From NCBI GenBank assembly GCA_026398575.1, contig JAPLSP010000138.1:1-24844 (forward strand): 24,844 nucleotides of DNA. Reading direction: 5' to 3'. Of the stretch, positions 2,115 to 23,655 are shown piece by piece; the first letter of the stretch is position 1, and each line of letters starts with the position of its first letter. Made by a program: the position numbers and the translations under genes. This DNA is from Candidatus Sumerlaeota bacterium. GTDB lineage: Bacteria; Sumerlaeota; Sumerlaeia; JADFCT01. The notes under the pieces are model-generated. The model saw only the letters and a list, made by a program, of their open reading frames with translations. It did no database searches and was not told the origin of the DNA.

Positions 2115-3110
2115 TCATCCCCTCTCCACAACAATCACGCGCGGATGTCCGGCGCCGTCTCGGAGCAGCTTGGGCGCTTTCCACCGCGAATTCGAGCGGA
2201 TCAAATCCTGCGCCTTTTCTCCCTGAGCGTAGCCGATCTCGAATATCAGCGCGCCGCCGGGGAGCAAATGATCCGGCGCCTCGGCCAGCATTCTTTTGAT
2301 GAATTCATCCCCTTCCGTTCCTGAGAAAAGCGCCAGCGCGGGTTCGTAGTCGCGGACGTCGGGCATGAGAGCTTCACGTTCTTTTTCACCGACATAAGGA
2401 GGATTGGAAACGATCAGATCGAATTCGCCGGAGACGGTGGAGAAAATATCCGATTGGATGAAAGCGATGCGACCTGTGTCTATGTCAGCCAAACCCAAGC
2501 GTCCGGCGTTTTCTCGCGCGACGTTGAGCGCTGCGGCGGATAGATCGGAGCAAACGACATGCGCCTCGGGGATTTCCGCAGCCAGCGTCAACCCGATGGC
2601 GCCGCTGCCGGTTCCAAGATCGAGAATGGAAAGTTCCGCGTTCCGGGTTCCGCGTTCCGCGTTCCGCCTTCCGCTTTCTGCGTTCTGCGTTCCGCGTTCC
2701 GCGTTTGGAGCCCCAGGCAATTTCGGAAGTTGAAACTCGGAACTCGGAACTCGGAACTCGGAACTATTGGTTCTGGGCCTTATCCATTCCAGCGCTGATT
2801 CCACCAGTAATTCCGTTTCCGGCCGGGGAATCAGAACATGCTGATTGACGAGGAATTCTCGTCCCCAGAATTCTTTGTGGCCCAGGATATATGCGATCGG
2901 TTCACGGCGCAGGCGGCGTTGAATCATCGTATGAAATTGCGCGCTTGCGGCCTCATCGAGCGCGTTATTTGCGCGCAAGATTAACTGCGTTTGATTCATT
3001 CCCAACGCTTCGGCCAGGAGCAACTCCGCGTCGAGCCGAGGGCTGGCGGCGCCGGCTTCTTTCAAGCGCAAGGCTGCCTTGTTTAATGCTTCTTCGATAA
3101 TCGGAGGCAA
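2115..3110 (-). CDS. prmC: Peptide chain release factor N5-glutamine methyltransferase PrmC (HemK)
   Basis: PrmC methylates the glutamine of the GGQ motif in release factors RF1 and RF2 with S-adenosylmethionine, in the cytoplasm. The N-terminal helical domain (about residues 1-110) contains the family's SPRLDAELLLAEALG and ILGHKEFWG stretches. The Rossmann methyltransferase domain begins with the SAM-binding LDLGTGSGAIGLTLA (about 163-177), followed by the catalytic NPPY in FDLIVSNPPYVGE. Residues ~113-159 are a low-complexity insert rich in Asn-Ala-Glu-Arg-Gly-Thr, encoded by 7-bp repeats and lying exactly between the two domains; without it the length is the usual ~280. The start is a TTG with no good ribosome site nearby, but no ATG is available before an upstream stop and the N-terminus aligns with the family from here. 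It lies 84 bp downstream of the oxidoreductase on the same strand. Confidence 0.93.
   Translation of the reverse strand: MPPIIEEALNKAALRLKEAGAASPRLDAELLLAEALGMNQTQLILRANNALDEAASAQFHTMIQRRLRREPIAYILGHKEFWGREFLVNQHVLIPRPETELLVESALEWIRPRTNSSEFRVPSSEFQLPKLPGAPNAERGTQNAESGRRNAERGTRNAELSILDLGTGSGAIGLTLAAEIPEAHVVCSDLSAAALNVARENAGRLGLADIDTGRIAFIQSDIFSTVSGEFDLIVSNPPYVGEKEREALMPDVRDYEPALALFSGTEGDEFIKRMLAEAPDHLLPGGALIFEIGYAQGEKAQDLIRSNSRWKAPKLLRDGAGHPRVIVVERG
2633..2766. repeat. Two heptanucleotide arrays inside prmC (GTTCCGC and GGAACTC families)
   Basis: Eleven consecutive 7-bp units, mostly GTTCCGC, run from 2633 to 2709 without an indel. After a 22-bp non-repeat spacer, five units, mostly GGAACTC, run from 2732 to 2766. 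Both are read through by prmC on the minus strand and give a seven-residue peptide period (such as AERGTRN). The array fills the linker between the helical and methyltransferase domains. Confidence 0.9.
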
Positions 3111-6398: not shown

Positions 6399-8537
6399 AT
6401 GGGCGTCATTCAAATACTTCCCGCGGTTCTCATCAATCAGATCGCGGCGGGCGAGGTGATCGTCCGGCCCGCGTCGGTCATCAAGGAATTGCTCGAAAAC
6501 GCGATTGACGCCGGCGCGACGCGCGTGCGGATCGAGGTGGACCGCTCGTGCCGCAACCTGACGCTCATTGACAACGGTTGCGGCATGACGCCCGATGATG
6601 CGCGCCTGGCGATCCAGCGCCACGCCACCAGCAAAATTCGCGACATCGAGGACCTGACGAATATCACGACGCGCGGCTTCCGCGGCGAGGCGCTGGCGAG
6701 CGTCGCCGCCGTGGCGCGGTTGGAGGTGCTGACGCGCCGCGCGGAGGACGTGGCCGGATTCCGCCTCGCCATCGAAGGGGGCCGCGAGGAAAGCGCCGGG
6801 CCGGTCGGATGCGCGCCGGGGACGACGATGCGCGTGCGCGATCTCTTCTTCAACGTGCCCGCGCGCCGCAAGTTCCTCAAGAGCGAAGCGTCGGAATTCA
6901 ACGCCATCATGCAGCTGCTGACGCGCCAGATGCTGGCGCGCGGCGACGTTGGCTTCATGCTGCTTCGCGAGGAAAAGAAACTCATCGAGCTGCCCACCGA
7001 TCAGCCGCTGGCCTCGCGCATGGTCCATCTGCTGGGCAATCTGGCCGAAGAACAGCTGCTCAAGATCAACGACGACCGGCACGGCATAAGAATCTACGGA
7101 TACATTACGCGGCCCGAGGCGACGCGCAAAGACCGGCGCGAGCAGTATTTCTTCGTCAACCAACGCCCCGTCACTCACCGCACCATGGGCTTCTCGCTCG
7201 AACAGGCCTTCCACGGATTGCTGATGGGCGGGCGGCATCCGGTTTGCTGTCTGTTCATCGAGATCCCGCCAGGCGAGGTGGACGTCAATGTGCACCCCAC
7301 CAAGGAAGAGGTGCGCTTCCGCGATGAAAGCAAGGTGACGGGGGTGTTGAATCACGCGGTGTCCGATGCGCTTCGCCAGGCGAATCTGACGGCGGCGATG
7401 CGGCTGCCCCCTGGCGCCCCCAATAAAGGAACCGGCGATTTGGCGCCGGACCAGCGCCACGCCGAATTCGCCCAGCGCGCCGAGCAATTGGGATTCGCCC
7501 CACCTTCAACTCCTTATGCAGCGGGGCGTCTGCCAGACCTGCCCGCGCCCGAAAAGCCGCTCTGGACAGGCAAAACCAAGATAAGCTCAAAATCATCCCC
7601 GCAGCCCACCGCGTCCACCCCGTCCACCGCGCCAGCCTTCCAAAAAAAATCTGAAGCTGCCCCAGACGATTTGCGCTTCGGCCCCGAGGATGACAACGAC
7701 AGAGCTGCCTCCACGCCGATGATTAATAATCACATCGCTCCATCTCTCGTCGCCATATCAGTAATACCTTGCGCAGATGATTCTTCAACGCCCCTCGACT
7801 TGGAGCAATCCTCAATCCCCAATCCCCAATCCTCAATCCCAAATTCGCAATCCCCAATCCCCACTCTGCAATCGTCAATCGTCAATCGTCAATCGTCAAT
7901 CCCCACTCTGCAATCGTCAATCCCCAATCTTCAATCCGCAATCCGCAATCCGCAATCCGCAATTTCCACTCCCCAGCCCCTCGGCCAGATCGCCGATTGC
8001 TATCTGGTGGCGTCGTTGGGCGACGATTTGGTGGTAGTGGATCAACATGCCGCTCATGAGCGGATCAACTTCAACCGCGTCATGGCGGCATTCGAGCGCG
8101 GCGGCGCCGATACGCAGCCGTTGCTGATTCCTGTCACGTTCGATGTTCCGGCGCGCGACCTTGGGCGCATCGAGGAACTTGTGCCATTGCTCAAAAGCGC
8201 CGGGATCGAGGTCGAGCATTTCGGTGGGCGCACCTACGTCGTGCGCGGCATTCCGGCTTCGATGCCCGACATGGATATTGCCGCCGCAATTCAGGATTTG
8301 CTTTCCGAGGAACGCGAAGCCAGCGGCTTGACCGGAGCGACGCCCCAGGAAAAAGTGGCCGCGCGCATTGCCTGCCATGCTTCGATCAAAGCGAATCAGC
8401 ATTTGTCGCCGGAGGAGCAGAAGCAGCTGTTGCGCGATATTTTCGCGGCGGAAGATCCTTATACTTGTCCGCATGGGAGGCCGACAATTATTCGGCTGAC
8501 GCGGGCGCAGTTGGATAGGCAATTTGGGCGGGGTTAA
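6399..8537 (+). CDS. mutL: DNA mismatch repair protein MutL (endonuclease-type)
   Basis: MutL couples MutS mismatch recognition to strand removal. The 712-residue protein has an N-terminal GHKL ATPase with KELLENAIDAGA (catalytic Glu near 30, Mg-binding Asn near 34), DNGCGM (58-63), TRGFRGEAL (91-99) and the transducer domain. The C-terminal domain has the endonuclease-type motif DQHAAHE (548-554), ACHASIKA and CPHGRP (from 690), so this is a nicking MutL rather than the E. coli type. The consensus DQHA(X)2E(X)4E has Asn instead of the last Glu. The linker holds a Pro/Ser/Thr-rich part encoded by 9-bp repeats (7602-7637) and 56 residues encoded by 24 heptanucleotide units (7805-7972). The ATG at 6399 starts the standard sequence MGVIQILPAVLINQIAAGEV. 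A hairpin follows the stop. Confidence 0.97.
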   Translation: MGVIQILPAVLINQIAAGEVIVRPASVIKELLENAIDAGATRVRIEVDRSCRNLTLIDNGCGMTPDDARLAIQRHATSKIRDIEDLTNITTRGFRGEALASVAAVARLEVLTRRAEDVAGFRLAIEGGREESAGPVGCAPGTTMRVRDLFFNVPARRKFLKSEASEFNAIMQLLTRQMLARGDVGFMLLREEKKLIELPTDQPLASRMVHLLGNLAEEQLLKINDDRHGIRIYGYITRPEATRKDRREQYFFVNQRPVTHRTMGFSLEQAFHGLLMGGRHPVCCLFIEIPPGEVDVNVHPTKEEVRFRDESKVTGVLNHAVSDALRQANLTAAMRLPPGAPNKGTGDLAPDQRHAEFAQRAEQLGFAPPSTPYAAGRLPDLPAPEKPLWTGKTKISSKSSPQPTASTPSTAPAFQKKSEAAPDDLRFGPEDDNDRAASTPMINNHIAPSLVAISVIPCADDSSTPLDLEQSSIPNPQSSIPNSQSPIPTLQSSIVNRQSSIPTLQSSIPNLQSAIRNPQSAISTPQPLGQIADCYLVASLGDDLVVVDQHAAHERINFNRVMAAFERGGADTQPLLIPVTFDVPARDLGRIEELVPLLKSAGIEVEHFGGRTYVVRGIPASMPDMDIAAAIQDLLSEEREASGLTGATPQEKVAARIACHASIKANQHLSPEEQKQLLRDIFAAEDPYTCPHGRPTIIRLTRAQLDRQFGRG
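7602..7637. repeat. 9-bp GTCCACC-type repeats inside the mutL linker
   Basis: Four consecutive nonamers (two exact GTCCACC cores flanked by two degenerate units) encode a Pro-Thr-Ala-Ser-type stretch. They belong to the same family as the intergenic array at 2062-2106. Confidence 0.75.
7805..7972. repeat. 24-unit heptanucleotide array inside mutL (CAATCNN family)
   Basis: Twenty-four successive 7-bp units, mostly [T/G/C]CAATC[C/G], run without any indel over 168 bp, which is exactly 56 codons. Sub-blocks of TCAATCG, GCAATCC and CCAATCC are visible, and a CCACTCT-GCAATCG pair occurs twice. In the mutL frame they give heptapeptide repeats such as NRQSSIV and NPQSAIR. The array is the linker just before the C-terminal dimerisation/endonuclease domain. 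Confidence 0.95.
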
Positions 8538-8547
8538 GTGCTACACT

Positions 8548-8602
8548 CGCCGGCAGGGATGCCGGCGCTCCCAGTGGGCGCTCCCAGTGGGCGCTCCCAG
8601 TT
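8548..8602. repeat. Strong hairpin followed by three 13-bp repeats downstream of mutL
   Basis: CGCCGGCA (8548-8555) pairs perfectly with TGCCGGCG (8560-8567) around a GGGA loop, 10 nt after the mutL stop. It runs into three tandem units of GGCGCTCCCAGT(G/T) at 8564-8576, 8577-8589 and 8590-8602. There is no U-tract, so it is not a classic intrinsic terminator. A degenerate CGCTCCCAG echo occurs near 8727-8735. It looks like a dispersed repeat that may also block transcription or stabilise the transcript end. Confidence 0.75.
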
Positions 8603-12948: not shown

Positions 12949-12968
12949 AGTACTTGGAGGCGATTGCG

Positions 12969-14138
12969 ATGAAATCAAGGCATAATCTTTCAGCGTTTGC
13001 TGCTTTGATGGTTGCGGCATGGTTATTGGTTGCTGTCACTCCTGCCAAAGCCGCCGATAACGCAAAGGCCAAAAAAAACTCGCCACCGCCACCGCCTTCT
13101 GCCTGGCAGCAAATCAATACCAAAGCATTGCGGTTGAGTATCGAAAATCTGTCCGCCACGTTCGGAGATCGCTATCCGAAAGGCCGCGATTATCTAAATC
13201 GGCTGGAGGAATGCGAACAGCAGGTTCAGGAACTCGATAAAGGGCCCGCCCTTGCCGCTGACGATCTGGCCGCCTCCAAGACCTTATGCGGCGCGCTGAT
13301 TGACCGATTCAAGGCGCTGCAACGCGACGCCATGCTCGCCAATCCGCTGCTCGATTTCGACCGGCTGCTGCTCGTCAAGCGCAAGGCTGACCGGCTGGGA
13401 TTGCCGCAAAATTGGCAGGGCAACTGCGCGCTTTCTCGAAGCGGATACGACAACGAAATTGCCATCCTCTCGTCTCTCAAGCCCGACGGCGCCATTTCGA
13501 CTCTCTACAGACCCGAAAAAGGCGAGTTCGTCGGAGACGTGGACCTGCACTTCGACGCCGGCAAGATGCTCTTTTCGATGCCGAAGGACAAGAATGGCCG
13601 CTGGCAAATCTGGGAAATCGGCGCCGACGGCAAGAACCTCCGGCAGGTGACGATTGACGAAGAGCCGGACGTGGACAACTACGACGCCTGCTATCTGCCT
13701 GACGGGCGGATTCTCTTCGATTCCACGCGATGCTTTCACGGCGTGCCGTGCGTCAGCGGCGGAAATACCGTGGCCAATCTGTGCATCATGAACAGCGACG
13801 GGAGCGCGATCCGCCAGATATGTTTCGACCAGGATCACGACTGGTGTCCGACCGTGCTCAACAATGGCCGCATTCTCTATTCGCGCTGGGAATACAGCGA
13901 TTCGCCCCACTACTTCACGCGCCTTCTCTTTCACATGAATCCCGATGGCACGAACCAAATGGAGTATTACGGCAGCAACAGCCCCTGGCCCAACTCGACC
14001 TTCTATGCCCGCCCCATTCCCAATCATCCGACCATGATTGTTGGCGTCATCTCGGGACACCACGGCGTTCCACGGATGGGCGAACTGGTGATTTTCGATC
14101 CGGCGCGCGGACGCCGTCAGAGCGACGGCGCCGTGTAG
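12969..14138 (+). CDS. Giant protein A, N-terminal part: secreted hydrazine-synthase-alpha-like propeller
   Basis: A 389-codon open segment. Residues 1-28 are a signal peptide ending AKA. A helical region (about 40-115) is followed by a propeller-like domain with DVDLHFDAGKMLFS, DACYLPDGRILF and LNNGRILYSRWEY, TolB/PD40-like strands as in the middle domain of hydrazine synthase alpha. MNPDGTNQMEYYGSN and ISGHHGVPRMGELVIFDP are highly conserved with giant protein B. The ATG at 12969 is chosen because GGAGG sits 8 nt upstream and the signal peptide starts here. The frame ends in the TAG discussed above, in the middle of the propeller, so the truncated product is unlikely to fold fully. Confidence 0.8.
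   Translation: MKSRHNLSAFAALMVAAWLLVAVTPAKAADNAKAKKNSPPPPPSAWQQINTKALRLSIENLSATFGDRYPKGRDYLNRLEECEQQVQELDKGPALAADDLAASKTLCGALIDRFKALQRDAMLANPLLDFDRLLLVKRKADRLGLPQNWQGNCALSRSGYDNEIAILSSLKPDGAISTLYRPEKGEFVGDVDLHFDAGKMLFSMPKDKNGRWQIWEIGADGKNLRQVTIDEEPDVDNYDACYLPDGRILFDSTRCFHGVPCVSGGNTVANLCIMNSDGSAIRQICFDQDHDWCPTVLNNGRILYSRWEYSDSPHYFTRLLFHMNPDGTNQMEYYGSNSPWPNSTFYARPIPNHPTMIVGVISGHHGVPRMGELVIFDPARGRRQSDGAV
14136..14138 (+). other. In-frame amber codon where paralogue has Gln
   Basis: TAG in the context GCC GTG TAG CGG ATT CCG; the paralogue has GCC GTC CAG CGC ATT CCC. A single C-to-T transition explains it. Open frame and protein similarity continue on both sides. Confidence 0.9.
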
Positions 14139-14189
14139 CGGATTCCGGGCTATGGTGCCAAGGTCCAACCTGTAATCGGCGATTCCATC

Positions 14190-16346
14190 GTGAATAACTC
14201 CTGGCCCAAGTTCCTGCATCCCTATCCCCTCAGCGACAAATACTTCCTGGTCTCCATGCAGCCGGACGGCGGTTCGCCGTGGGGTATTTACCTGGTGGAC
14301 ATCTACGATAATCTGACGCTCGTGCGCGAGGAGCCGGGATACGCGCTCTTTGAGCCGCTGCCTTTGCGCAAGACGCCCCGCCCCGCAATCGTTCCCGATC
14401 ATGTGGACCTGAGCCGACGCAACGCCTCGGTCTATCTGAACGACATCTACGTGGGGAAAGGGCTAGAAGGCGTGCCGCGCGGGACCGTCAAAAAATTGCG
14501 GATTTACGAATTTCATTACGCCTATCCGCGCATGGGCGGCCACAGCCACATTGGGATAGACGGCCCCTGGGACGTCCATCGCATCCACGGAACGGTTCCC
14601 GTCGAGGTGGATGGCTCGGCCAACTTCAGAGTTCCGGCCAATACCCCGATCGCTGTGCAGCCGCTCGATTCCGAAGGGCGTTCGCTGCAGCTGATGCGCA
14701 GTTGGTTCACCGCCATGCCGGGCGAAACGCTCTCGTGCGTCGGCTGCCATGAGTCGCAAAATAGCACGCCTCCCAGCAAGCCTTCGATGGCCATGAGCCG
14801 TCCGCCCTCCGAGATCGCGCCGTGGTACGGGCCGGCGCGCGGCTTCAGCTTCGCGCGCGAAGTTCAGCCCGTGCTCGACAAATATTGCGTCGGCTGCCAC
14901 AACGGCGAAAAACGCAGCAACGGAAAAACAATCGCCAACTTCCGCGGCGACCAGCCGAACGGCGGATTCGACATCGTCAAAGGAAGCAAAGGATTCACGG
15001 CCTCCTACATGGCGCTGCATCCTTTTGTGCGCCGCCCGGGACCTGAGAGCGACTATTTCATGCAGAAGCCGCTCGAATACCATCCGAGCACTTGCGAACT
15101 CGCGCAAATGCTCACGAAGGGACATCATGGCGTCAAACTCAACACCGAAGCGTGGGACCGGCTTTATACCTGGATTGATCTGAATGTCCCGGATCACGGC
15201 ACATGGACCGAGCATCGCGCCATCGCTTCTCCCATGCATGAACGGCGGCTGGAGATGCGGACGCGATACGCCAACCGTCCCGAAGACCCCGAAGCGTATC
15301 CGACCTCCGGCCCGGCGATTCTGGCCAGCGATCCACGTTATGCCGACAGCGAAGCGCGCTCCGCATCCAGTGTCCAGTTGACCGCCGTGGCAAATTCGCA
15401 ATCCGCAATTGAAAATCCGCAATCCGGAATCGTCAATCGTCAATCGTCAATCGTCAATCCACAAGGCTGGCCATTCGACGCCGCCGAGGCAACAAAGCGC
15501 CAGGCAGCCGCAGGCGCACAAACACAAATCAAACTTGACCTTGGAAATAAAGTGGATCTGGACCTTGCGCTCATTCCGGCGGGCGAGTTTGCGATGGGCG
15601 ACCTGGATGGCTGTCTCGACGAGCGTCCCATGGCGCCGGTCAAAATCGAAAAGCCATTCTACATGGGCAGATGTGAAGTCACCAACGCCCAATACGCCCT
15701 CTTCGATCCCGCGCATGACAGCGCCTATATCAGCGTCTATAATAAGGACCAATCCAATCGCGGTGAAATCGCCAATCGCGAACGGCAGCCCGTGATTCGG
15801 ATTACATGGAGGGAAGCGACGGCCTACTGCGAGTGGCTGTCGAAAAAGACCGGGCGCAAATTTTCGCTGCCCACCGAGGCGCAATGGGAATACGCCTGCC
15901 GCGCGGGAACGGCGACGCCGTTGAGCTTCGGCGATTGCGCCGTTGACTTCGGCAAGCTCGCCAATCTGGCCGATCAGCGCGTCAATAACCTGTGCCGGGG
16001 GAATTCGCCCAAATGGATTCCGAGCGTCCCGCAGGTCAACGACGGCGCCATCGTCACCGAGCAAGTGGGAAAGTATCAGCCGAATGCCTGGGGCCTTTGC
16101 GACATGCACGGCAACGTTTGGGAATGGACGCGGACAACCTACAAACCCTATCCCTACGATCCATCCGATGGCAGGGACAGCGGCGAGGCCGAAGGCGCCA
16201 AGGTCGTGCGCGGCGGCTCATTCTATGACCGCCCCCTGCGCGCCCGTTCCGCCTTCCGCCTCTGGTATCCGGCCTGGCAATGCGTCTATAGCGTTGGCTT
16301 TAGAGTAGTCTGTGAAACAGAACCCAGCGACACCGCAAAGAAATAG
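14190..16346 (+). CDS. Giant protein A, C-terminal part: di-CxxCH cytochrome region and FGE-like domain
   Basis: A 718-codon segment in the same frame as the upstream half; GTG at 14190 is merely the first possible start, has no ribosome site and lies inside the propeller, so independent translation is doubtful. It contains the rest of the propeller and two haem motifs, SCVGCHE (codons 590-594 of the joined frame) and YCVGCHN (640-644). A linker encoded by 7-bp repeats follows (15391-15460). The C-terminal domain (from about codon 865) is FGE/sulfatase-modifying-factor-like, with IPAGEFAMG, LPTEAQWEYACRAG, NAWGLCDMHGNVWEWT and VVRGGSFYD. The catalytic cysteines of true FGE (GSFLCH...CNRYR) are missing. 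Without the upstream signal peptide it could not receive haem in the periplasm. Confidence 0.75.
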   Translation: MNNSWPKFLHPYPLSDKYFLVSMQPDGGSPWGIYLVDIYDNLTLVREEPGYALFEPLPLRKTPRPAIVPDHVDLSRRNASVYLNDIYVGKGLEGVPRGTVKKLRIYEFHYAYPRMGGHSHIGIDGPWDVHRIHGTVPVEVDGSANFRVPANTPIAVQPLDSEGRSLQLMRSWFTAMPGETLSCVGCHESQNSTPPSKPSMAMSRPPSEIAPWYGPARGFSFAREVQPVLDKYCVGCHNGEKRSNGKTIANFRGDQPNGGFDIVKGSKGFTASYMALHPFVRRPGPESDYFMQKPLEYHPSTCELAQMLTKGHHGVKLNTEAWDRLYTWIDLNVPDHGTWTEHRAIASPMHERRLEMRTRYANRPEDPEAYPTSGPAILASDPRYADSEARSASSVQLTAVANSQSAIENPQSGIVNRQSSIVNPQGWPFDAAEATKRQAAAGAQTQIKLDLGNKVDLDLALIPAGEFAMGDLDGCLDERPMAPVKIEKPFYMGRCEVTNAQYALFDPAHDSAYISVYNKDQSNRGEIANRERQPVIRITWREATAYCEWLSKKTGRKFSLPTEAQWEYACRAGTATPLSFGDCAVDFGKLANLADQRVNNLCRGNSPKWIPSVPQVNDGAIVTEQVGKYQPNAWGLCDMHGNVWEWTRTTYKPYPYDPSDGRDSGEAEGAKVVRGGSFYDRPLRARSAFRLWYPAWQCVYSVGFRVVCETEPSDTAKK
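15391..15460. repeat. Ten-unit heptanucleotide array inside giant gene A
   Basis: Ten consecutive 7-bp units of the CAATCNN family (including three exact TCAATCG units) with no indel. They encode NSQSAIENPQSGIVNRQSS-type sequence in the linker between the haem region and the FGE-like domain. Confidence 0.9.
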
Positions 16347-16360
16347 CAAGGCTCATTCAT

Positions 16361-16400
16361 GTCCGTGTCAGTCCGTGCCAGTCCGTGTCAGTCCGTATTA
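16361..16400. repeat. Four 10-bp GTCCGTGTCA repeats
   Basis: Four exact-phase decamers (16361-16370, 16371-16380, 16381-16390, 16391-16400), the last degenerate, fill the gap between giant gene A and the second Tat oxidoreductase, ending 17 bp before its ribosome site. Confidence 0.85.
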
Positions 16401-19950: not shown

Positions 19951-22900
19951 ATGGACATCTCTATGGCTGCATACTGTCACCAGAAAATCGCGCGTCCTAA
20001 ACATTCCATAAGCGCAAGGGCCCTGCAATGCGCCTTGCTGGCCATTGCGATGGCTTATGCCAGCTCCATCCAGGCCTTCGAGGGATGCACAGTCGAGGAG
20101 CCAAACCCGCAAATCGCGCGGGCGCTCCGCTCCAATACGGCGCCGCCGGTGAACGTGAAGGCGCTCCGGCTGGCCATCGAAGACATCATCAAGACCAATC
20201 CCGGCCAATACGCGCGCGGCCCGGAATTCCTGAAGCGGTTGGACGCATGCGAGAAGCGCCTGCAGGACTCGCAGAATTCACAAGCCACGCCCGCTGGCAG
20301 AAACAAGGTAAACAAGAGCGCGACGGATCCGGAGCTGGCGCATGAATTGCGTCTTTTGCAGTGGCAGGCCTTGATCGAAAATCCTGCCTTGGACTTTGAC
20401 CGTCTCCTGATCGTCAAGCGCAATGCCGGCGCCCTGGGTCTGCCTCAAAATTGGCAGAGCAATTCCAGCCTGAAGCGCTCGGGCTTCGATAACGAGATCG
20501 CCATCTTTTCGCCCTTTCGGCCCAATGAGGGAATCGCCACTCTTTGCAAGCCCGACGGCGGCAGGTTCGTGGGCGACGTGGATCTGCATTTCGACGGCGA
20601 CCGGATGCTCTTTTCCTCGCTCGATGCGCGCAGCCGCTGGCAGGTTTTTGAGATCAAGCTTGACGGCTCGGGTCTGCGCCAGGTTACGCCCGGCGATCAA
20701 CCGGACGTGGACGCTTACGACGCCTGCTATCTGCCCAACGGCAAAATCCTGTTCAGCAGCACCGCGCAGTTCACGGGCGTGCCGTGCGTCTTTGGCGGCT
20801 CGCACGTTTCGATGATTTACAGCATGGACGCCGACGGCAAGGGCATCCGGCAACTGTGCTTCGAGCAGGATCATGACTGGTGCCCCGTGCCGCTGAACAA
20901 CGGGCGCGTCCTTTACGCGCGTTGGGAATACGCCGATACGCCGCACTCGCAGACGCGTTTCCTTTTTCACATGAATCCCGACGGTACCGAGCAGATGGAG
21001 TATTACGGGAGCAACTCTTATTGGCCCAATTCCATCTTCTACGCGCGCGCCATCCCCGGACATCCGACCAAAGTTGTCGCGGTCATCTCCGGCCATCATG
21101 GCGTCCCGCGCATGGGCGAACTCGTCATCTTCGATCCCGCGCAGGGACGCAACGAAGCGAACGGCGCCGTCCAGCGCATTCCCGGCTTCGGTCAAAAAGT
21201 CGAGCCGATCATCAAAGACCAGCTCGTCAATGCGAGCTGGCCGAAATTCCTTCATCCCTATCCGCTGAGCGAAAAATATTTCCTCGTCGCCTGCCAGCCC
21301 ACGGCGCAATCGCTGTGGGGCATTTATCTCGTGGACGTCTTCGACAACATGCTGATGTTGCGCGAGGAACCCAAATATGCCCTGCTCGAGCCCATCCCCG
21401 TCCGCCCGACGCCCAAACCTCCCGTCATTCCCGATAAGGTGGACCTGAGCCGCAAAGACGCGCTGATCTATGTGCAGGACATCTACGCCGGGCCGGGACT
21501 GAAAGGCGTTCCGCGCGGCTCGGTGAAGAAACTGCGCGTCTTCACCTATCATTTCGCCTATCAGGGAATGGGCGGCTTGATTGGCGTCCTCGGGATGGAC
21601 GGCCCGTGGGATATCAAGCGCATCATGGGAACCGTGCCCGTCGAGGAGGACGGCTCCTGCTATTTCCGCGTTCCCGCCAATACGCCCGTCGCTGTGCAGC
21701 CACTCGACGCCGAGGGCAAGGCGATGCAGCTGATGCGCAGTTGGATGACGGCGATGCCGGGCGAAACGCTCTCCTGCGCGGGGTGCCACGAACGTCAGAA
21801 TTCCGCGCCCTCGGGACGCCGCCCCCAGGCGCTTGCCTCGGCGCCCGCCGAGATCACGCCGTGGCTTTGGCCTACGCGCGGCTTCAGCTATCCGCGCGAA
21901 GTGCAACCCGTCCTCGATAAGTATTGCATCTCCTGCCACAACGGCGAGTCGCGTCCCGACGGGAAGACGATTCCCAGCCTGCGCGGCGACAAAATGATCA
22001 CGGACTTTGCTTCCACCATGCCCGGCACGGGCGGAAAACGCGGCGGCAAGTTTTCAGTGAGCTATGCCGAATTGCACCGCTACGTGCGCCGTCCTGGAAT
22101 CGAAAGCGACTATCATCTCCTCACGCCGCTCGAATTTCACGCCGACACGACGGAACTCGTTCGCATGTTGCGCAAAGGCCATCATGGCGTCCAGCTTGAC
22201 GCCGAAGCCTGGAACCGGCTGATTACCTGGATTGACCTCAACACCGAATATCACGGCACATGGACCGACGCCGGATGCGATCCCGGTCCGCAGCGCGAAC
22301 GCCGGCGCGAACTGCAAAAACTCTATGCCAATCGCGACGAAGACCCCGAGCGGGAAGCCACGTGGAAGCCTGCGGTGCTCATGGCTCAGGGGCCAGAGGT
22401 CGGGGATCAGGGGTCAGGGGTCGGGGGTCAGGGATCAGGGGTCGGGGGTCAGGGATCAGGGGTCAGGGGCCAGGGATTGGCAGCTGTTAATCCGCAATCC
22501 GCAATCGTCAATCGTCAATCGTCAATCGTCAATTCACAATCCGCAATCGTCAATCGTCAATCGTCAATCGTCAATTTGCAATCCGCAATCCGCAATCCGC
22601 AATCCGCAATCATCACGACGCGTTCGCTTGATCTGGGTGGCGGCGTCACATTGGAACTGGCGCTTATCCCTGCGGGCGAATTCATCATGGGCGCCTCCGA
22701 CGGCTGTCCGGATGAGCGGCCCGTGACCCGCGTCACGATCTCCGAGCCTTTCTGGATGGGCCGGTGCGAAGTGAGCAACGCGCAGTTTGCGCGCTTCGAT
22801 CCCACGCACGACAGCCGCGTCGAATCGAAGCATGCCTATCAGTTCGGCATTCACGGCTATCCCATGAACAAGCCCGATCAGCCCGTGGTGCGCGTTTCGT

Positions 22901-23556
22901 GGCGGCAGGTCATGGATTTCTGCGAATGGTTCTCCCAAAAAACCGGCGAGAGCATTGATCTGCCCACCGAGGCGCAGTGGGAATACGCCTGCCGCGCCGG
23001 CGCCACGACGCCTTTTTGGTACGGCGATCTCGACGCTGATTTCTCAAAACTCGCCAATCTGGGCGACGCCAGATTGAAAGAACTGGCCGGCAATCCCTAC
23101 ACCGTGGATACGCCGCTGCCCAAGCCGACGAAATACGATGACTGGGTTCCGAAAGAAACGCGTTTCGACGACGGCGCGCTGATCTCCGCCGCGATTGGCA
23201 GCTATCGGCCCAATCCCTGGGGTTTGTGCGACATGCATGGCAACGTGGCCGAGTTGACGCGCACAACGTACGCGCCTTATCCTTACAACGCCGGCGATGG
23301 GCGGGAGGCCGGCGGCATGAAGCTGGATGCCGGCGGCATAAAGCTGGATGCCGGCGCCAAAGGGCAGGGCAGCGGCGTCGCCGAAGGACGCAAGGTTGTT
23401 CGCGGCGGCTCCTGGTATGACCGCCCGATGTTTGCGCGCGCCTCCTACCGTCTGGATTATCCCAGCTGGCAATGCGTCTATAACGTGGGCTTCCGCATCA
23501 TCTCGCGAACAAAAACGGATTCAGTCCCGACGTCCCGAATCGCGAAAGCCCACTGA
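19951..23556 (+). CDS. Giant protein B: secreted hydrazine-synthase-alpha-like propeller, di-CxxCH cytochrome, FGE-like domain
   Basis: An intact 1201-residue paralogue of giant protein A. A signal peptide (hydrophobic residues ~25-42) leads into a helical region and a propeller-like domain (about 150-480; DVDLHFDGDRMLFS, DACYLPNGKILF). Then come two CxxCH haem motifs at 609-613 (CAGCH) and 659-663 (CISCH). The next ~75 residues (813-888) are encoded by two different 7-bp repeat families. The C-terminal FGE-like domain (from ~892) has LPTEAQWEYACRAG and NPWGLCDMHGNVAELT but lacks the catalytic cysteines; a 21-bp tandem repeat adds AGGMKLD/AGGIKLD near 1120-1135. Hydrazine synthase alpha makes hydrazine in anammox bacteria, but no beta/gamma partner is here and the FGE fusion argues for another, unknown function. 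Start is uncertain (ATG 19951 or 19963); no good ribosome site. Confidence 0.88.
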   Translation: MDISMAAYCHQKIARPKHSISARALQCALLAIAMAYASSIQAFEGCTVEEPNPQIARALRSNTAPPVNVKALRLAIEDIIKTNPGQYARGPEFLKRLDACEKRLQDSQNSQATPAGRNKVNKSATDPELAHELRLLQWQALIENPALDFDRLLIVKRNAGALGLPQNWQSNSSLKRSGFDNEIAIFSPFRPNEGIATLCKPDGGRFVGDVDLHFDGDRMLFSSLDARSRWQVFEIKLDGSGLRQVTPGDQPDVDAYDACYLPNGKILFSSTAQFTGVPCVFGGSHVSMIYSMDADGKGIRQLCFEQDHDWCPVPLNNGRVLYARWEYADTPHSQTRFLFHMNPDGTEQMEYYGSNSYWPNSIFYARAIPGHPTKVVAVISGHHGVPRMGELVIFDPAQGRNEANGAVQRIPGFGQKVEPIIKDQLVNASWPKFLHPYPLSEKYFLVACQPTAQSLWGIYLVDVFDNMLMLREEPKYALLEPIPVRPTPKPPVIPDKVDLSRKDALIYVQDIYAGPGLKGVPRGSVKKLRVFTYHFAYQGMGGLIGVLGMDGPWDIKRIMGTVPVEEDGSCYFRVPANTPVAVQPLDAEGKAMQLMRSWMTAMPGETLSCAGCHERQNSAPSGRRPQALASAPAEITPWLWPTRGFSYPREVQPVLDKYCISCHNGESRPDGKTIPSLRGDKMITDFASTMPGTGGKRGGKFSVSYAELHRYVRRPGIESDYHLLTPLEFHADTTELVRMLRKGHHGVQLDAEAWNRLITWIDLNTEYHGTWTDAGCDPGPQRERRRELQKLYANRDEDPEREATWKPAVLMAQGPEVGDQGSGVGGQGSGVGGQGSGVRGQGLAAVNPQSAIVNRQSSIVNSQSAIVNRQSSIVNLQSAIRNPQSAIITTRSLDLGGGVTLELALIPAGEFIMGASDGCPDERPVTRVTISEPFWMGRCEVSNAQFARFDPTHDSRVESKHAYQFGIHGYPMNKPDQPVVRVSWRQVMDFCEWFSQKTGESIDLPTEAQWEYACRAGATTPFWYGDLDADFSKLANLGDARLKELAGNPYTVDTPLPKPTKYDDWVPKETRFDDGALISAAIGSYRPNPWGLCDMHGNVAELTRTTYAPYPYNAGDGREAGGMKLDAGGIKLDAGAKGQGSGVAEGRKVVRGGSWYDRPMFARASYRLDYPSWQCVYNVGFRIISRTKTDSVPTSRIAKAH
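22387..22477. repeat. Thirteen-unit heptanucleotide array (CAGGGGT family) inside giant gene B
   Basis: Thirteen consecutive 7-bp units (CAGGGGT, CGGGGGT, CAGGGAT variants) without indel encode a Gly/Gln/Ser/Val-rich segment. It directly precedes the CAATCNN array and has no counterpart in copy A. Confidence 0.9.
22487..22612. repeat. Eighteen-unit heptanucleotide array (CAATCNN family) inside giant gene B
   Basis: Eighteen units in unbroken phase over 126 bp, with blocks of TCAATCG and GCAATCC. They encode NRQSSIV and NPQSAIR heptapeptides in the same linker as the shorter array of copy A. Confidence 0.95.
23308..23355. repeat. 21-bp tandem repeat inside the FGE-like domain of giant gene B
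   Basis: Units 23308-23328 and 23329-23349 differ at one base, followed by a 6-bp partial unit. They add seven-residue repeats AGGMKLD and AGGIKLD in a loop just before the VVRGGSW motif; copy A lacks them. Confidence 0.85.
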
Positions 23557-23563
23557 CCGTTAG

Positions 23564-23655
23564 TAGTTCCACCGTGTTCGTAGTTCCGCCTTTAGGTGGC
23601 GCTTGTAGTTCCACCTTCAGGTGGCGCTTGTAGTTCCACCTTTAGTTTGTGTTTG
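23564..23655 (+). repeat. 25-bp hairpin repeat, one truncated and three full units
   Basis: Units start at 23564 (truncated, 17 bp), 23581, 23606 and 23631, the last three exactly 25 bp each, pattern TAGTTCC, stem, TT(T/C)A loop, stem, then CGCTTG or TGTTTG. Stems are CCGCC/GGTGG (one G-T wobble), CCACC/GGTGG (perfect) and a decayed one. This is the same family as at 3137-3192, again oriented with transcription. The last unit ends in GTTTG, which with the next bases forms the GGAG ribosome site of the following gene. Confidence 0.85.

Follow-up and report, generated by a model that had tools for sequence, protein, structure and literature searches.

A phased heptanucleotide array in the inter-domain linker of a Sumerlaeota MutL and its relation to dispersed bacterial heptamer arrays

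The STRR heptanucleotides of cyanobacteria are families of tandem 7-bp units, like the arrays described in this work. Bacterial genomes are on average without an excess of short tandem repeats (PMC12699852). Heptameric repeats are described as over-represented in bacteria, four units being favoured, and their role is left open; they are intergenic to 89-93% in Xanthomonas and to 68% in Nostoc, and heptanucleotides of Calothrix are mentioned in the same source (PMC4692102). An earlier survey ranked heptanucleotides first in abundance among the repeat classes of most genomes, with the contact length of the polymerase as the suggested cause (via PMC4679880). The TAACTGA heptanucleotide direct repeats of Beggiatoaceae and Cyanobacteria are spread patchily over phyla, and in the genome examined in that work most of them closely precede start codons (PMC4679880). 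A coding system of the same unit length is (AAGACTC)n in the 5' region of neuO, where full-length reading, the ON state, is obtained at unit numbers divisible by three; its switching was measured, and a strain with 21 repeats held about 7% off-size cells (PMC13001214). In Salmonella, a tandem 6-bp repeat (GCTGGC) in mutL itself has been proposed to set mutability, conversion being supported by experiment: the repeat was converted in a mutator strain and not in two non-mutator strains (PMC2955026). With this conversion in print, the idea that repeats in mutL act as a switch is therefore not new. Our literature search, which covered few subscription papers, returned no match for Sumerlaeota tandem repeats, Planctomycetes heptanucleotides, cyanobacterial STRR heptanucleotides, or the units and peptides of the arrays reported below, and the word "heptanucleotide" was absent from the available passages of PMC12699852 and PMC8161180.

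The DNA studied here, referred to as the window, is a stretch of 24,844 nucleotides from a Candidatus Sumerlaeota bacterium. It contains an intact mutL gene on the plus strand (6399-8537), whose product of 712 residues has the Pfam domains HATPase_c_3 (residues 24-119), DNA_mis_repair (210-325) and MutL_C (528-669). NCBIfam assigns the protein to MutL (TIGR00585, E 3.4e-153), and in the PDB it matches MutL chains best, Mlh1 and PMS chains ranking lower; the GHKL ATPase and the MutL_C dimerisation domain that mark membership of this family were both found (Pfam, PDB, NCBIfam). The best named relatives in a homologue search are from Candidatus Sumerlaeota. MutL proteins of the endonuclease type are marked by the motifs DQHA(X)2E(X)4E and CPHGRP. 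The window MutL has DQHAAHE and CPHGRP, which are invariant over 36 aligned sequences, while Asn takes the place of the final Glu in the first motif; a Glu is present at this position in just 5 of the 36.

Within this gene, positions 7805-7972 of the plus strand consist of 24 heptamers in a single phase, and when the units are cut at 7806, 19 of them match CAATCNN exactly. TRF found the repeat at 7806-7963 with a period of 7, 22.6 copies and 80% match and gave a second solution with a period of 21 (7805-7963, score 178). Copies of CAATC always follow one another at distances of 7 or 14 bp. With seven units (7911-7959), the longest exact CAATCNN tandem of the whole window lies in this array and is far above chance, as shuffling the window by single bases 300 times (plus strand) gave at most two units. 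Hence the 24-unit phased array proposed in the initial annotation is real, and so is its phasing, whereas the repetition of the units is not strict. Runs of identical units reach four at most, in CAATCGT x4 (7869-7896) and again in CAATCCG x4 (7932-7959), both on the plus strand, and long pure tracts are absent from the array. The array is thus phased yet degenerate. It is translated as eight heptapeptides, QSSIPNP QSSIPNS QSPIPTL QSSIVNR QSSIPTL QSSIPNL QSAIRNP QSAISTP, located at approximately residues 470-525 of the protein. An AlphaFold2 model built from 36 MutL sequences gave pLDDT values below 50 for residues 370-513 and 517-521, so that nearly the whole array is predicted to sit in a disordered linker between the ATPase and the C-terminal domains. 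The assignment of the array to the MutL inter-domain linker therefore holds, the Pfam domains ending at residue 325 and restarting at 528 with predicted disorder between them. The 6-bp repeat of Salmonella mutL reportedly lies in the ATPase part.

The array had been called unusual for a mutL gene, and the homologue search bears this out. Among 7998 scored proteins, the best 120 were listed, one of which is the window's own; two consecutive heptapeptides of the array type were present in none of the other 119 listed MutL homologues (the linker itself was read in 116). The three closest listed homologues (P0003 to P0005), 60-65% identical in the alignment, are also without an array. When the array peptide (residues 466-530) was used as the query, 35 proteins were obtained at E<=10, two of them from the window and 12 of the other 33 at E<=0.001. 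All 33 have a tandem heptapeptide motif (the array part was read directly in 25), and none has a MutL domain by Pfam. The named sources among them are Sumerlaeota (two proteins) and Phycisphaerae (four). From their Pfam entries we take the array-peptide proteins to include O-antigen ligases, glycosyltransferase-like proteins, an ABC transporter pair, xanthine-dehydrogenase-type and NeuB-like proteins and a DnaE-type polymerase. In five of the records (P0132, P0140, P0141, P0143 and P0146), peptides such as GLRIGDCGLRIS adjoin QSxI arrays; peptides of this type look like the reading of QSxI heptamers from the complementary strand, i.e. inverted array pairs within genes.

A lag-7 scan of the 24.8-kb window returned six arrays, at 2633-2705, 2734-2765, 7806-7963, 15428-15459, 22407-22475 and 22489-22611. 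The same scan found none at lags 3-6, 8, 9, 11 and 12 and one each at lags 10 and 13. The initial annotation, sound on the mutL array itself, had left the other five unmentioned in its entry on that array. The six arrays fall in four of the window's genes (about 13, counted by hand), namely prmC, mutL and two HZS_alpha/FGE paralogues, and they are located between annotated domains in all four; with this share of the genes affected, an array in mutL needs no special reason. The prmC gene (minus strand, 2115-3110) has two adjacent inverted arrays between PrmC_N and the methyltransferase domain: a GTTCCGC array (2633-2705 by TRF), read as NAERGTQNAESGRRNAERGTRNAE, and, inverted relative to it, a TCGGAAC array (2723-2765 by TRF, 2734-2765 in the scan), read as SSEFRVPSSEF. 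A search with the peptide of the prmC array gave seven other proteins at E<=10, one of which, of pseudouridine-synthase type, was at E<=0.001; the weaker matches include MutS2-like and TilS-like proteins. A MutS2-like protein record (P0160) carries an array of the heptapeptide NAERGTR.

The two HZS_alpha/FGE paralogues are 56% identical over 1125 aligned positions, and each carries a CAATCNN array at the corresponding site between its HZS_alpha and FGE-sulfatase domains (Pfam), of different length in the two. The array of copy 1, the second CAATCNN array of the window, spans 15393-15464 on the plus strand by TRF (15428-15459 in the scan), and that of copy 2, the third, spans 22489-22615 on the same strand (TRF 22495-22615 with period 42 and 88%; scan 22489-22611). 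Directly before the latter there is an in-frame G-rich array of TCAGGGG, TCGGGGG and TCAGGGA units (22386-22477, plus strand; TRF period 21, 91%). Copy 2 is a gene of 1201 aa (19951-23556). Copy 1 (12954-16346) keeps to a single frame throughout, but this frame is interrupted by a TAG at 14136-14138, for which a pseudogene, read-through and a base error are alternatives. TRF also found tandem repeats at or near gene borders, at 8564-8601 (13-bp units), 16361-16396 (10-bp units) and 23580-23645 (25-bp units).

As a control, 80 titled mutL loci among the matches listed (1.41 Mb; no Sumerlaeota among the titles) were scanned in the same way. There were two or three calls at each lag from 5 to 13, including two at lag 7, both of which were gaps written as N, so that none of the control loci had a real period-7 array. 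After TRF had shown periods of 21 and 42, we compared the likeness of units at different distances by permutation: units at lags 3 and 6 were more alike than those at lags 2, 4, 5 and 7 in two arrays, that of mutL (p 0.019) and the G-rich one (p 0.0016). Lag 1, at which the mutL units are just as alike as at lags 3 and 6, was omitted from the comparison. The preference was not significant in the other three of the five window arrays compared (p 0.16, 0.22 and 0.30).

A close likeness is to the Xanthomonas GGGAATC and Nostoc GGGGA(C/T)T repeats, which are likewise dispersed 7-bp arrays of mixed units with a preference for four units and with inverted pairs (PMC4692102). Checked by hand, the reverse complement of a rotation of Nostoc GGGGATT is CAATCCC. 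Those repeats are mostly intergenic (PMC4692102), whereas all six arrays of the window are in genes, in linkers. They are also G-rich, while the units of the window's mutL array rarely hold a G-tract: CAATCCC accounts for seven units with at most two in a row, and four consecutive G-tracts, as in a G-quadruplex of the GGGNATC type, are absent from the array. Quadruplex formation by the mutL array was considered and rejected because there are too few G-tracts. The upstream location of TAACTGA (PMC4679880) likewise differs from that of the window arrays within genes, and its forward unit holds stop codons, whereas CAATCNN has none in any sense frame.

This property of CAATCNN follows from its codons. 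On the sense strand the unit is read as CAA TCN NCA ATC NNC AAT CNN, which contains no stop in any frame with any NN, and the encoded heptapeptide is identical in all three sense frames save for its start point. On the complementary strand, stops are possible for some NN. We classed 47 distinct arrays, derived from 50 loci among the matches listed after six repeats of the same places had been dropped: 22 lie in sense and four in antisense orientation within an open frame that spans 600 bases or more and leaves 30 or more codons on either side, and 21 in neither; the frames were taken from stop to stop, which approximates genes only roughly.

Four-unit CAATCNN arrays were present in 26 of 288 genomes of the L017 phylum (Verrucomicrobia by title), in 5 of 44 of the L052 phylum (titled PVC group) and in 1 of 15 single genomes, which include three phylum centres. 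In the L023 phylum none of 150 genomes had such an array, and the backward control, CTAACNN, was also found in none of these. The backward control was obtained in 24 of 288 genomes of the L017 phylum (counted by hand), 3 of 44 of the L052 phylum and 2 of the 15 single genomes. Since the backward pattern is about as frequent as CAATCNN, it is heptamer arrays as a class that are in excess, not CAATC. In some Verrucomicrobia genomes CTAACNN forms strong heptamer arrays of its own, with 206 overlapping matches in one genome (G182). Six IMG/VR viral contigs (L082, L083, L088, L090, L103 and L111) have related flanks and (CAATCGT)n with n from 3 to 5. The arrays of these contigs lie mostly in short open frames. 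The IMG/VR (CAATCGT)n contigs were set aside, as they are not clearly the same phenomenon.

Array lengths could be compared between orthologues in other organisms. In a set of O-antigen ligases (P0124/P0130/P0145/P0127, 92-97% identical), the array comprises 66/52/38/52 residues; it comprises 65/51 residues in an ABC set (P0129/P0135, 97% identical) and 66/52 in a PF13231 pair (P0132/P0140, 92% identical). In all eight pairs with more than 90% identity, the lengths differ by multiples of seven residues (0 in one pair, 14 in six and 28 in one), the eight not being independent since they come from three protein sets and a single set of four proteins supplies six. The non-zero differences are 42 or 84 bp, all multiples of 21 bp; as protein records hold open frames only, a multiple of 3 bp is guaranteed in them, a multiple of seven residues is not. 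The length check in steps of 21 bp that had been proposed for mutL was thus passed by 8 of 8 close pairs of other array genes. In more diverged sets the pattern was less sharp: the PF09586 pair also differed by a multiple of seven, as did two of nine comparisons (at three sites) among P0126, P0143 and P0153; such a difference was absent in the NeuB pair and in both P0141 pairs.

The initial annotation had proposed that gain or loss of a 7-bp unit would shift the frame of mutL, and in silico this is the case for one or two units. Addition or removal of one or two units (7 or 14 bp) gave products of 543, 548, 550 or 555 residues that had lost the C-terminal domain, while changes of three units (21 bp) kept the frame and gave 705 or 719 residues with the normal C-terminal end. 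Since changes of one or two units remove the C-terminal domain in silico, a mutL switch is possible in principle. This outcome would agree with a contingency locus, in which unit gain and loss toggles MutL so that mutators are always in the population, and neuO (PMC13001214) and the Salmonella mutL conversion (PMC2955026) are precedents for it. However, similar arrays sit in prmC and in both HZS_alpha/FGE genes, none of which is known to be linked to mutability, and the 119 other listed MutL homologues lack one. The units of the mutL array are mixed, with runs of at most four, as opposed to the 21 repeats of the neuO strain (PMC13001214). Phase-variation repeats are cited as enriched near the N-terminal end (PMC4692102), whereas the mutL array lies two thirds into the gene; the neuO repeats are in the 5' region. 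The Salmonella case concerns a 6-bp unit with experimental conversion (PMC2955026), the window 7-bp units in a linker, and no variant allele of the mutL array was seen, nor was a close relative of the contig found in which its turnover would show. We therefore regard a mutation-rate switch at mutL, which had been suggested for this array, as unproven and unlikely, and the standing supply of mutators as very improbable. The intact phase had been read as a sign of selection for changes in threes; it is expected from ordinary purifying selection and is therefore no evidence of a switch. A mutL-specific role for the array was also rejected, because like arrays sit in unrelated genes.

A dedicated insertion process that carries CAATCNN, GTTCCGN, TCAGGGG and other families between phyla, as a mobile or horizontally transferred element, would account for the CAATCNN peptide in proteins of both Sumerlaeota (two) and Phycisphaerae (four), for the few further proteins with a prmC-type peptide and for the inverted array pair in prmC, which resembles that of Xanthomonas (PMC4692102). 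Against such a process, Verrucomicrobia hold other heptamers at about the same frequency, and units could be shared through convergence, given that a unit with stops would not survive in a gene; we consider it improbable, though less so than the contingency locus. An assembly artefact, with a wrong unit number or a chimeric array, might be suspected since the window MutL protein is represented by one contig only. However, the frame is open through every array, comparable arrays are found in other assemblies, and the longest exact repeat that overlaps the mutL array is 33 bases. The word lengths usual in assemblers would resolve a repeat of 33 bases. Collapse of the mutL array is accordingly unlikely, and an artefact is the least credible of these explanations.

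We conclude, with a probability of about 0.75, that the mutL array is one of many dispersed bacterial heptanucleotide arrays, here coding, tolerated in a linker and frame-preserving. Coding heptamer arrays at domain boundaries, found in several genes of this contig and in proteins from more than one phylum, are the coding form of a known class. Such arrays would originate and lengthen through slippage during replication or through unequal recombination, and may persist in the genes of a lineage if the unit is free of stops on the sense strand, as CAATCNN is, if the array sits in a flexible linker or loop, and if the total change keeps the frame, i.e. comes in multiples of 21 bp. For the window MutL, the 56-residue insert would be near-neutral, and the arrays may be spread over the whole genome, judging from this one contig. 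More tentatively, and with clearly less chance of being correct than the reading as a dispersed array, a cross-phylum process could repeatedly place stop-free, frame-transparent heptamer arrays into linkers and loops (of MutL, PrmC, O-antigen ligase, ABC ATPase and others), after which growth and shrinkage in 42-bp steps would give environmental bacteria adjustable disordered linkers, with mutL thereby open to rare frameshift loss of mismatch repair.

The mutL array also gives reason for caution, as a repeat within a repair gene alone does not make a switch. The literature places dispersed heptamers mainly between genes (PMC4692102, PMC4679880), whereas here they occur within conserved genes, at domain boundaries. 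Coding arrays with frame-preserving length steps are thus a usable system for following the growth of 7-bp repeats, and its limits, in genes.
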